Assembly (NCBI RefSeq): GCF_013376105.1
Contig: NZ_JAAMFM010000033.1
Location: 1-47,821 of the forward strand
Length of the DNA stretch: 47,821 bases
Reading direction: 5' to 3'
Source: Arthrobacter wenxiniae
GTDB taxonomy: Bacteria > Actinomycetota > Actinomycetes > Actinomycetales > Micrococcaceae
Both the position numbers and the translations under genes were made by a program. The notes under the pieces are model-generated. The model was not told the origin of the DNA. It did not search any database and saw nothing but the letters and a program-made list of their open reading frames with translations. This document shows, piece by piece, positions 39,309-41,564 of the stretch; the first letter of the stretch is position 1; each line of letters starts with the position of its first letter.

Positions 39309-40676
39309 TCAACCGCCGTTCACCAGCCTGCGGGCCGCGCGGCTGTGTTCGGCGATGAGCGTGCCCAGGTCAAGGCCCGGGATCTGCCCGTCCACCACGC
39401 GCCACTGCCCGCCCACCATGACCCGGTCCGCCCGGTCGGCCCCGCACAGCAGCAGGGCCGCCACGGGGTCGTGGGAGCCTGAAAACCGCAGCTCGTCGAG
39501 CATGAACAGGGCCAGGTCTGCCTGGCGGCCGGGGGCAATCTCGCCCAGGCTGTCCCGCCCCAGCACCCGGGCCGAGCCGCGGGTGGCCCAGCCCAGCGCC
39601 CGCTCCACGCTGACGCCGGCGCCGTAGCGGAGCCGCTGCAGGTAGAGCGCCTGGCGGGCTTCCTGGATCATGTTGGACGCGTCGTTGGAGGCCGACCCGT
39701 CCACGCCAAGTCCTACCGGGACGCCGGCCGCCTCGAGTTCCAGGATGCGGGCCGTGCCGGACGCCAGCCTCATGTTCGACGTCGGACAGTGGGCCACGCC
39801 GGTGCCGGCGGCTCCCAGCCGGGTGATCTCGGCGTCGTCAAAGTGGATGCCGTGCCCCACCCACGTGCGGTCTGTCAGCCAGCCCACGCTCTCCAGGTAG
39901 TCCACGGTGCGCAGGCCAAAGCGCCCGCGGCAAAAGTCCTCCTCGTCAAGGGTCTCGGCCAGGTGCGTGTGCAGCCGCACGTCCAATTTTTCGGCCAGGG
40001 CGGCGCTCTCCGCCATGAGGTCGCGGGTGACGGAAAACGGTGAGCACGGCGCCAGCGCTATCTGGATGACGGCATCCTCGCCGCGTTCGTGGTAGGCGGC
40101 CACGAGCCGATCGCTGTCGGCCAGGATCACCTCCGGGTCCTGGACGGTCGATTGCGGCGGCAATCCGCCGTCGTCCTCGCCCAGGGACATGGAGCCCCGG
40201 GTGAGGGTGGCCCGCATGCCCAGTGCACGCACAACCTGGACCTGGATGTCGATGGCCTCCTCGAGGCCGCCGGGGAACAGGTAGTGGTGGTCGGCGGCCG
40301 TGGTGCACCCGGAGAGGAGCAGCTCGGCGAGGGCCGCCGTGGTGGCCAGTTCAAGGTCCCGGGGGGTCAGGCGCGCCCATACGGGGTACAGGTTCTTCAG
40401 CCACGGGAACAGCTCGGCATTGGCCACGGGCGCCCAGGCGCGGGTAAGTGTTTGGTAAAAGTGGTGGTGGGTGTTGACCAGGCCCGGCGTGATGACGTGC
40501 CGGCCGGCGTCGAACACCTCTTCGCACGGCACGGCGGGTGATTTGCCGGTGCCCACCACCTCGGCGATGGTGCCGCCGGAAATGACCACCCCGCCGCCGG
40601 CGTCGAGGTCATTGGCGGTAAAGGCGGCGAGCGGGTTCTTCAGCCACAGGCGCTGCTTGGCGTGGGCTTGATTCAC
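39309..40676 (-). CDS. 8-oxoguanine deaminase
   Basis: A 455-aa amidohydrolase-superfamily enzyme. Metal and substrate motifs are visible: LVNTHHHFYQTLTRAWAPV (HxH with extra His), LLSGCTTAADHHYLFPGGLE, VRLHTHLAETLDEEDFC, WVGHGIHFDDAEI, GVAHCPTSNMRLASG and VGLGVDGSASNDASNM (Asp). This set matches 8-oxoguanine deaminase (which makes urate) and related hydroxydechloroatrazine aminohydrolases. The GTG at 40676 follows AAGGA; the frame is open to 40724 through the terminator stem. It is convergent with the IclR gene, and its leader carries an intrinsic terminator. Confidence 0.85.
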   Translation of the reverse strand: MNQAHAKQRLWLKNPLAAFTANDLDAGGGVVISGGTIAEVVGTGKSPAVPCEEVFDAGRHVITPGLVNTHHHFYQTLTRAWAPVANAELFPWLKNLYPVWARLTPRDLELATTAALAELLLSGCTTAADHHYLFPGGLEEAIDIQVQVVRALGMRATLTRGSMSLGEDDGGLPPQSTVQDPEVILADSDRLVAAYHERGEDAVIQIALAPCSPFSVTRDLMAESAALAEKLDVRLHTHLAETLDEEDFCRGRFGLRTVDYLESVGWLTDRTWVGHGIHFDDAEITRLGAAGTGVAHCPTSNMRLASGTARILELEAAGVPVGLGVDGSASNDASNMIQEARQALYLQRLRYGAGVSVERALGWATRGSARVLGRDSLGEIAPGRQADLALFMLDELRFSGSHDPVAALLLCGADRADRVMVGGQWRVVDGQIPGLDLGTLIAEHSRAARRLVNGG

Positions 40677-40799
40677 GGTGTGGATCCTTGCGGTTGGAGG
40701 GGGCGTCCCGCTGTCGGCCAACAAAAAAAGCCGGCACCTTGCGGGTGCCAGCTCAGTGTTGGCCTGTCTGCTGATCCAGGCGGGCCGACGTGGCGGCCC
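40677..40799 (-). promoter_or_regulatory. Structured leader RNA (candidate attenuator or riboswitch) of the 8-oxoguanine deaminase gene
   Basis: Predicted from the promoter at 40806-40835. The transcript starts with a GGGCCG/CGGCCC hairpin (40782-40787 with 40794-40799), then GCCTG/CAGGC (40762-40766 with 40777-40781), and then the terminator stem. An alternative pairing of 40771-40779 with 40748-40756 would sequester the 5' arm of the terminator and exclude the second hairpin. No gene lies upstream, so this terminator cannot simply end another transcript. I do not recognise a known riboswitch class. Confidence 0.55.
40723..40752 (-). terminator. Intrinsic terminator inside the leader
   Basis: Minus-strand order is GGCACC (40744-40749), loop CGCAA, GGTGCC (40733-40738), GGC, then a run of seven T (40723-40729). 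It ends 47 nt before the GTG start of the deaminase gene. The T tract makes it one of the clearest intrinsic terminators in the window. Confidence 0.8.
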
Positions 40800-40805
40800 G
40801 GTTTC

Positions 40806-40835
40806 AACCTAGGCGACGGCCGGACGGGATGTCAA
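40806..40835 (-). promoter_or_regulatory. Promoter of the 8-oxoguanine deaminase leader
   Basis: Read on the minus strand, a perfect TTGACA (40830-40835) and TAGGTT (40806-40811) are separated by 18 nt. A start near 40799 would produce a leader of about 123 nt. Confidence 0.65.
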
Positions 40836-40880: not shown

Positions 40881-40909
40881 TTGCCTGTCTCACATCCGGG
40901 TGTTAGTGT
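40881..40909 (+). promoter_or_regulatory. Promoter of the guanine deaminase / permease / xanthine dehydrogenase genes
   Basis: TTGCCT (40881-40886), 17 nt, TAGTGT (40904-40909). Transcription from about 40916 would give a ~148-nt leader to the guanine deaminase start. It is divergent from the 8-oxoguanine deaminase promoter, with about 50 bp between the two -35 elements. Confidence 0.5.
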
Positions 40910-40915
40910 CTTCAT

Positions 40916-41063
40916 CAAGTCTATGGCGGGCGCCCCTCGAAGGGCCGCTATCTACCGGGCGTATCTTGAATCCCCAACCAAGTGCACACCGGTACATGGA
41001 GGCCCCCGGGCCTCCCGCAAGGACCTGAACAACCGGGTGCTCACAAGTGACAAGGAAGTCACC
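40916..41063 (+). promoter_or_regulatory. Structured 5' leader of guanine deaminase
   Basis: An unusually long leader with three hairpins. GCGG/CCGC has a nested CCC/GGG stem (40926-40948); GGAGGCCC/GGGCCTCC lies at 40998-41015; GTGAC/GTCAC (41047-41051 with 41058-41062) holds AAGGAA, the Shine-Dalgarno, in its 6-nt loop one base before the ATG. TATCTACC at 40949-40956 recalls the core of purine riboswitches, but the rest does not match. Control of translation is plausible. Confidence 0.4.
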
Positions 41064-41549
41064 ATGAATACCAGTCATAGCGGCCAGGACCACCTGGCCC
41101 GGGCAGTGGAGTTGGCTGTGGCCAACGTCCTGGACCACGGCGGGCCATTCGGCGCCGTCATCGTCACGGCGGACGGGCGGGCCTTTGAGGGCATCAACCG
41201 CGTCACGGCCAACAACGACCCCACCGCGCACGCCGAGGTCACCGCCATCAGGAGTGCCTGCACGGCGCTCGGCACCTTCGACCTCTCCGGCGCCACCCTC
41301 TACACCAGTTGCGAGCCCTGCCCCATGTGCCTGGCCTCGGCCCTCTGGGCCCGCGTGGACAGGGTGTTCTACGCCGCCGACCGGCACGACGCCGCCAGGG
41401 CAGGCTTCGACGACGCCGTCTTCTACGACTACTTCGACACCCCCGTGGAGCAGCGGCCCATGCCCGTGCGGCAGCTGGCGCCCGGCGCCAGCGACCCCTT
41501 GGCCCCGTTCACCACGTGGACGGGCCTCGCCACCCGGATTGACTATTAG
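41064..41549 (+). CDS. Guanine deaminase, cytidine-deaminase-like fold
   Basis: A 161-aa zinc hydrolase converting guanine to xanthine. The catalytic HAE is in NNDPTAHAEVTAIRSA and the zinc cysteines are in YTSCEPCPMCLASALW. The family-specific C-terminal swap region AGFDDAVFYDYFDTPVEQR is present. The ATG at 41064 follows AAGGAAGTCACC; an in-frame start at 40881 would run through the structured leader. It is 15 nt upstream of the permease and within the purine-uptake group. Another nucleoside-type deaminase is the only realistic alternative. Confidence 0.85.
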   Translation: MNTSHSGQDHLARAVELAVANVLDHGGPFGAVIVTADGRAFEGINRVTANNDPTAHAEVTAIRSACTALGTFDLSGATLYTSCEPCPMCLASALWARVDRVFYAADRHDAARAGFDDAVFYDYFDTPVEQRPMPVRQLAPGASDPLAPFTTWTGLATRIDY

Positions 41550-41564
41550 GGCGGGGATCCTCAC

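Follow-up and report, generated by a model that had tools for sequence, protein, structure and literature searches.

Introduction

To our knowledge, few natural RNAs sense oxidised purines. For 8-oxoguanine, the consulted part of a review from 2022 mentions just one candidate, which is rare (PMC9971707). Among the described systems, NMT1 is a small riboswitch of purine catabolism with xanthine and urate as ligands, and some of its copies precede 8-hydroxyguanine/guanine deaminase-like genes (PRK12393); in the sections consulted it is described as a hairpin interrupted by an internal bulge (P1, P2a, P2b) that acts as an OFF switch, with terminators almost absent, and is reported in Proteobacteria only (PMC7373994). 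According to the accessible sections of PMC11625349, preQ1-I is a very small H-type pseudoknot with a guanine-like base as ligand, which uses terminator or Shine-Dalgarno platforms depending on the species, the terminator platform being OFF. The guanine-I variants that recognise 8-oxoguanine and xanthine have a three-stem junction and kissing loops, and those for xanthine are described as ON switches (PMC9295807, consulted sections).

Here we analysed a stretch of 47,821 nt from Arthrobacter wenxiniae (the window), in which the leader of an 8-oxoguanine deaminase gene contains what is likely a candidate new riboswitch class: a small (~32 nt) H-type pseudoknot occurring in two forms, of which type 1 would respond to 8-oxoguanine and type 2 to urate, both as ON switches. 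It resembles NMT1 in being a small RNA in a purine-catabolism setting, but NMT1 is a bulged hairpin and an OFF switch, whereas the motif described here is best folded as an H-type pseudoknot, is predicted to be ON and is found in actinobacteria too. The crystallised NMT1 sequence (from the accessible part of PMC8266621) and the motif consensus have, by eye, no common core, and an identity with NMT1 (xanthine-I) was rejected on sequence and topology. With preQ1-I the motif has in common its size, the H-type pseudoknot topology (from pairing evidence only in our case) and both kinds of platform; the gene context differs, however, and the preQ1 terminator platform is OFF whereas an ON switch is predicted here. 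The likeness to the guanine-I variants lies in the oxidised-purine ligand space (the ligand here being the predicted one), but a pseudoknot of ~32 nt cannot accommodate a three-stem junction.

The original prediction, made from the sequence of the window, had recognised no known class, and this holds. Rfam 15 gave no match at gathering score for the window and 14 relatives, and permissive searches (E up to 10 for the window, up to 5 for two relatives) returned chance-level matches only, e.g. RcsR1, which scored 18.4 bits where the threshold is 60. No preQ1 family row appeared for the window to E 10 or for two relatives to E 5, no purine-riboswitch row for the window and the 14 relatives, and no NMT1-type row in the searches of the 4227 models (inclusion of an NMT1 model among them being unconfirmed). 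Searches of open-licence PMC articles returned no riboswitch report on 8-oxoguanine deaminase or uric acid, the articles on uricase were off topic by title and abstract, and 8-oxoguanine led to a preQ1 review only; the accessible portion of a 26-genome survey (PMC8632094) contains nothing on the deaminase gene. Unreported thus means absent from Rfam 15 and from these open-licence PMC searches, and a non-Rfam motif of the 2017 survey of 224 motifs may match.

The deaminase leader and its genomic setting

The deaminase gene occupies 39309..40676 on the minus strand, with a GTG start at 40676 and, by reading, a Shine-Dalgarno-like AAGGA at 40685..40689 (-). Its product belongs to the NCBIfam equivalog PRK08203 (687.7 bits, cut-off 532); the protein queries carried one extra residue ahead of the GTG. 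The divergent neighbour is a deaminase-family protein at 41064 (+), and since the genes on the divergent side encode a member of the cytidine/deoxycytidylate-deaminase family, a permease of the Xan_ur_permease family and xanthine-dehydrogenase-like subunits, the setting is one of purine breakdown. An IclR-type regulator, of a DNA-binding family, is also encoded near the deaminase. The uricase of the same genome is encoded on a different contig, where it follows a coding sequence on the 3' side, and no motif precedes it.

The leader comprises ~123 nt. As originally predicted, it is headed by a TTGACA -35 element (40830..40835, -) and a TAGGTT -10 element (40806..40811, -) with three of six consensus bases and a spacer of 18, a promoter that a sigma-70 consensus scan did not list. 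Its shape (TTGACN, 17-18 nt, TANNNT, 23-26 nt ahead of the motif) recurs in seven of the eight leaders examined, the window's included, i.e. in six of the seven same-genus leaders and in G049, and is absent in G012. The leader fold is more stable than all 200 of 200 shuffled sequences (z -4.8). The predicted intrinsic terminator is real: a stem-loop of 11 bp at 40728..40754 (-), with a hairpin energy of -19.4 kcal/mol and seven T at 40729-40723. It precedes the GTG start as stated, but its last T lies 46 nt away from it and not 47. The claim that no gene lies upstream of the terminator was likewise confirmed: with the upstream neighbour divergent, the terminator serves no upstream gene, and a minus-strand ORF there (40890-41564, a mechanical call) is antisense to the divergent gene. 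Taken alone, a terminator-like site is weak evidence, because shuffled sequences give 2.5 of them per 6 kb (five were found in the 6 kb analysed). The segments GGCCAACA (40764-40757, -) and UGUUGGCC (40722-40715, -), which flank the terminator, are predicted to pair with each other when the read-through RNA folds.

A second hairpin, GGGCCG/CGGCCC at 40782..40799 (-), lies upstream of and outside the conserved core. Hairpins at the equivalent place occur in 113 of 135 type-1 and 34 of 34 type-2 leaders, and in 53% and 38% of the respective shuffled sequences. Being variable in sequence and frequent in shuffles, this hairpin was rejected as part of the aptamer.

A conserved motif ahead of 8-oxoguanine deaminase genes

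A conserved motif of 32 nt is located at 40780-40749 (-) in the window leader. Searching with the leader DNA, we obtained matches in seven of 23 genomes of the genus, exactly the seven that carry the deaminase at E 1e-150, and in 48 of 245 genomes of the family, mostly covering query positions 61-94 with the consensus CCUGGAUCAGCAGACAGG-N-CACUGAGCUGG. When loci were fetched with the deaminase protein instead, the motif was present upstream of the gene in 79 of 80 cases (the best 80 of at least 585 relatives), at a median distance of 48 nt from the start of the protein alignment. These 80 loci come from Micrococcales and Pseudomonas (Arthrobacter, Pseudarthrobacter, Microbacterium, Isoptericola, Pseudomonas and others), and the one locus without the motif is from Georgenia (L059). 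In the controls, the motif pattern was found in none of 8000 shuffled upstream regions and on none of the 80 antisense strands; in the other 400-nt windows of the same loci it matched 11 times out of 1252, and all 11 are copies of the type-2 form described below.

In total, 159 of the 160 distinct type-1 sites stand ahead of a deaminase, many of these sites having been fetched through the deaminase itself; for the 89 sites fetched with the RNA model only, the number is 88. The remaining site in each case precedes a deaminase remnant, which in the full set is L277 (G553): an intact motif is followed by 24 aligned deaminase residues (71% identity) and a stop a few codons on, and the locus reads like a decayed deaminase gene with a surviving leader. 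Among 92 non-redundant leaders, the information content is 1.3-2.0 bits per column in the core and averages 0.16 (upstream) and 0.21 (downstream) in the flanks, the values in loop and tail columns being partly built in, since L1, S2, L2 and the tail (see below) are largely prescribed by the motif pattern, which leaves the S1 bases free apart from their pairing. The same pattern lies behind the count of 79 in 80 leaders, the terminator-register test, the L3 lengths and the numbers of type-1 and type-2 sites. Many of the loci are close relatives of one another, and the family and genus names of part of the genomes were inferred from named relatives. Taken together, the motif is almost certainly a conserved cis-acting RNA.

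Pairing evidence for a pseudoknot

The best fold of the motif is an H-type pseudoknot, in which S1 (40780-40777/40766-40763) is interleaved with S2 (40773-40770/40752-40749). Read along the minus strand, it consists of the S1 5' strand CCUG (40777..40780), L1 with the sequence GAU (40774..40776; GAG or GAA in some type-1 leaders, RGAG in type 2), the S2 5' strand CAGC (40770..40773, partner 40749-40752), L2 with AGA (40767..40769; AGG, rarely AGA or GGG, in type 2), the S1 3' strand CAGG (40763..40766), L3 (40753..40762), which is made up of a variable stretch and a conserved ACUGA (AAUGA in type 2), and finally the S2 3' strand GCUG (40749..40752), the putative switching strand, which is common to the terminator 5' strand. 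An optional fifth S1 pair (G40781-C40762, -) is standard in only 36 of 77 rows and was not counted as established.

To assess covariation we used an alignment (A3) with one sequence per distinct state, i.e. 23 sequences kept from 80, of which 20 are type 1. In these 20 sequences, a selection that favours variable rows, 97.7% of the cells are paired and five of nine pairs show a change on both sides. Three of the four core pairs of S1 are among the pairs changed on both sides, and in S2 an A-U pair becomes G-C in Isoptericola/Cellulosimicrobium-type loci. The covariation score of 0.316 (shuffle mean 0.106) was reached by 0 of 500 shuffles and drops to 0.14 or less when the pairing partners are slid. 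The observed states are CCUG:CAGG, CUUG:CAAG and CGGCG:CGCCG for S1, and CAGC:GCUG and CGGC:GCCG for S2. On a tree of 77 deaminases (thinned from the 127 of 135 type-1 loci that have a usable protein) the S1 states need two changes and the S2 states one, so the independent compensatory events are few.

In the original prediction, 40771-40779 had been paired with 40748-40756 as an alternative to the terminator. This helix exists on paper (eight of nine positions), but it is not the conserved one: none of its pairs changed on both sides, a U-A pair is broken in 2 of the 20 sequences and, judging by the alignment, the helix is out of register. Stems that covary in relatives are indeed found, not as the proposed helix but as S1 and S2 of a pseudoknot. 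We consider it very probable that the motif folds in this way.

The part of L3 before the tail ranges from 3 to 52 nt and usually has 5. Inserts of 52 nt are found in L258 and L007 (G006) and of 19 and 22 nt in L005 and L006, and three same-genus leaders have longer stretches (up to 52 nt); by comparison of these leaders, L3 is evidently tolerant of inserts. The changing length of the loop before the tail (3, 4, 5, 6, 19, 22, 52 nt) makes an attenuator with a leader peptide unlikely, and this reading was rejected, the L3 lengths modulo 3 (0, 1, 2) being distributed as 26, 7 and 59 in the 92 non-redundant leaders. In L027 (2834-2895), a full type-1 motif is directly preceded by an incomplete tandem repeat of the motif's 5' half (CCTGGATCAGCAGCGTGC).

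Overlap of the motif with expression platforms

The GCUG of S2 is at the same time the U-proximal part of the terminator stem. Starting from GAGCUG of the motif, this stem has 11 bp in six of the seven same-genus type-1 leaders and 8 bp in G049, and the seventh same-genus leader (L258) has a hairpin of 12 bp with a poor U tract. When GCUG is blocked, the minimum energy of the window leader changes from -40.2 to -27.8 kcal/mol, and a stem of 5 bp remains that lies away from the U tract. Five further type-1 leaders flagged as having terminators are taken as chance.

In Pantoea and many Pseudomonas leaders the strand, as GCUGGCU or GCUGGC, has a different partner, AGCCGGC or AGCCAGC, which adjoins GAGG in the Shine-Dalgarno region just ahead of the start codon. 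Taken one by one, most of these Shine-Dalgarno-masking stems do not differ significantly from shuffles (p 0.01-0.3); significant ones occur in L047 (10 bp, p under 0.01) and in the unrelated L115 (11 bp, p 0.01), and L078 and L152 have stems of 11-12 bp on the GCUG strand, far from the start codon. Of the 110 type-1 leaders without a terminator only 24 (21.8%) have a downstream stem that beats 95% of the shuffles, so that the platform is unconvincing in many type-1 leaders; ribosome-site masking as the general platform of all of them was rejected on this count.

The reading of the window leader as a transcriptional riboswitch or attenuator, as put forward in the original prediction, is strongly supported by what we observed, i.e. 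conservation in two phyla, compensatory changes in the predicted structure, gene association and the overlap of aptamer and expression platforms. As GCUG is common to S2 and to the terminator or the Shine-Dalgarno-masking stem, an ON switch is predicted, and by this folding logic the formed aptamer would quite probably turn the gene on. Without ligand, the strand GAGCUGGCACC would pair with GGUGCCGGCUU and transcription would halt at the seven U. With the ligand bound, the pseudoknot of S1 (CCUG:CAGG) and S2 (CAGC:GCUG) would hold GCUG, the U-proximal part of the terminator could then not form, and the deaminase would be transcribed; the RNA would act as an ON switch for the induction of a degradative enzyme.

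A sister form ahead of uricase and permease genes

In the family of the window a second form, type 2, has the sequence CCUG-RGAG-CAGC-AGG-CAGG-N-AAUGA-GCUG and is found a few kb from type 1 or elsewhere in the genome; the two types were told apart by L1. Among 39 distinct type-2 sites, 31 precede a uricase, five a permease and three a small ORF, and none (0/39) a deaminase; those fetched with the RNA model comprise five, one and one, respectively. These downstream genes were identified by tblastn with one uricase and one permease query, and with Pfam on representatives only, which returned PF01014 for L018 and PF00860 for L240 and, in a partial reading, for L242. A terminator stands in the same register at 33 of the 34 type-2 sites tested (those taken in by a stricter pattern), with a stem of 11-12 bp whose sequence varies with the pairing kept. 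The deaminase and the uricase/permease forms differ in L2 and in the base before UGA. An intermediate, L242, has the L1 and tail of type 2 and the L2 of type 1, and stands ahead of a permease.

Distribution across genomes

Model R1 gives one convincing copy in the window genome, the next best match having E 2. Across the family, 51 of 245 genomes carry the deaminase and all 51 have the motif upstream (47 by model R1, four by reading); the four leaders that were read have 52 nt in L3 (G006) or a rewritten S1 (G172, G207, G216). The R1-marked leaders lie within 250 nt of the aligned end in 46 of 47 cases, and in G056, where the alignment starts only at residue 164, the match is 699 nt away from it. 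Five more R1-positive genomes of the family carry type 2 only. A survey of the order with model R2 covered 218 genomes; the CGGCG:CGCCG form was present in nine genomes belonging to a single genus (g42), for which 'Brevibacterium-like' is our guess, and these loci stand ahead of the deaminase. In L248-L250 and L283-L291, which have this S1, a downstream hairpin of the GGUGGCGA/UCGCCAC type resembles GGCGAC beside the start codon, a likeness that makes the opposite switching direction possible; judged from these sequences, the switch might run in the opposite direction in the Brevibacterium-like clade.

Among Pseudomonadaceae, 86 of 198 genomes have a strong match (E 4e-12 or better) and 17 more have weak matches alone, judged by score only; all 30 of the 30 loci fetched lie ahead of the deaminase. 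With even sampling, two of 369 genomes matched in Gammaproteobacteria, one of them the centre genome, and 14 of 394 (E 0.01) in Actinomycetes, six of them strongly. The plasmid searches yielded a single type-1 leader match, in Pantoea, directly before an annotated 8-oxoguanine deaminase, and no match to the type-2 query. Neither reading nor the pattern nor model R2 revealed a motif at ten more distant deaminases (of 74 other plasmid records; Rhizobium, Vibrio, Paracoccus, Deinococcus and others), which have at most 62.5% identity; the best R2 match near these genes is antisense with 14.7 bits. The patchy spread, together with the protein identity of 72-77% between the window deaminase and most Pseudomonas deaminases among the matches listed, suggests that the gene and its leader may have moved together by horizontal transfer. 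Weak model matches of ~22-33 bits in the broad surveys appeared by eye to be chance among those fetched, with two exceptions (L137/L226, 30.2 bits; L246, 32.6 bits), both of which are type-2 copies.

Candidate ligands and alternative readings

From the comparison of leaders and downstream genes we infer direct ligand binding, the identity of the ligands and the direction of switching. That the RNA would sense its ligand directly appears quite likely. The best candidate for type 1 would be 8-oxoguanine, the substrate of the deaminase, and for type 2, ahead of uricase and a purine permease, urate; for each of these two assignments we see about an even chance. A more specific reading, which we propose tentatively and rate slightly below even, is that of an unreported class similar in size to preQ1-I, whose sister aptamers would discriminate between 8-oxoguanine and urate through a small number of loop bases (GAU/AGA/ACUGA versus RGAG/AGG/AAUGA), both being ON, with terminators in some actinobacteria and ribosome-site masking in Pseudomonas.

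We read the clean split of the genes between the two types as a sign of different ligands. If both forms were instead riboswitches for the same ligand, most likely urate, with the loop differences tuning affinity only, type 1 would not be expected ahead of deaminase genes only (159 of 160, the other being the remnant) and type 2 never there, nor would L2 and the tail differ consistently between the forms. Urate is the product of the deaminase, the substrate of uricase and a possible cargo of the permease; it would link all three gene types, and the intermediate L242 ahead of a permease favours a single ligand, which we nevertheless regard as rather unlikely. Less probable still is that the RNA does not sense a metabolite directly but is bound by a protein, either an antiterminator or a translational activator: conserved RNAs as small as this one can act as protein sites, but the element stands ahead of the deaminase gene in both phyla and also on the Pantoea plasmid, with transcription as well as translation platforms, and the IclR-type regulator near the window deaminase belongs to a DNA-binding family. 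Finally, it is highly improbable that the motif is an operator in the DNA, or that the leader is ordinary and constitutive and its terminator due to chance: the motif is close to promoters, and hairpins (53% of shuffled type-1 upstream regions) and chance terminators (2.5 per 6 kb) arise easily, but the motif keeps a single orientation (0 of 80 antisense strands), has compensatory changes in two helices, takes up to 52 inserted nt, and its terminator and ribosome-site stems use one common strand.

If the reading as sister riboswitches for 8-oxoguanine and urate is true, base damage and urate would be sensed by a compact RNA, a pseudoknot of ~32 nt, and a purine-catabolic riboswitch would operate in actinobacteria as well as in Pseudomonas. 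With two sister forms, the exchange of a few bases offers a direct test of ligand discrimination.

Small ORFs downstream of type-2 motifs

The three type-2 motifs ahead of a small ORF are L226 (G060), L243 (G140) and L246 (G236). The ORF of L243 (96 aa), the one of the three that was run, had no Pfam match. The small ORFs of L226 and L243 have a common KRT(R/K)HPR...GTGVVD core and a similar ORF was read in L246; this small ORF linked to type 2 may encode a new purine-linked protein.
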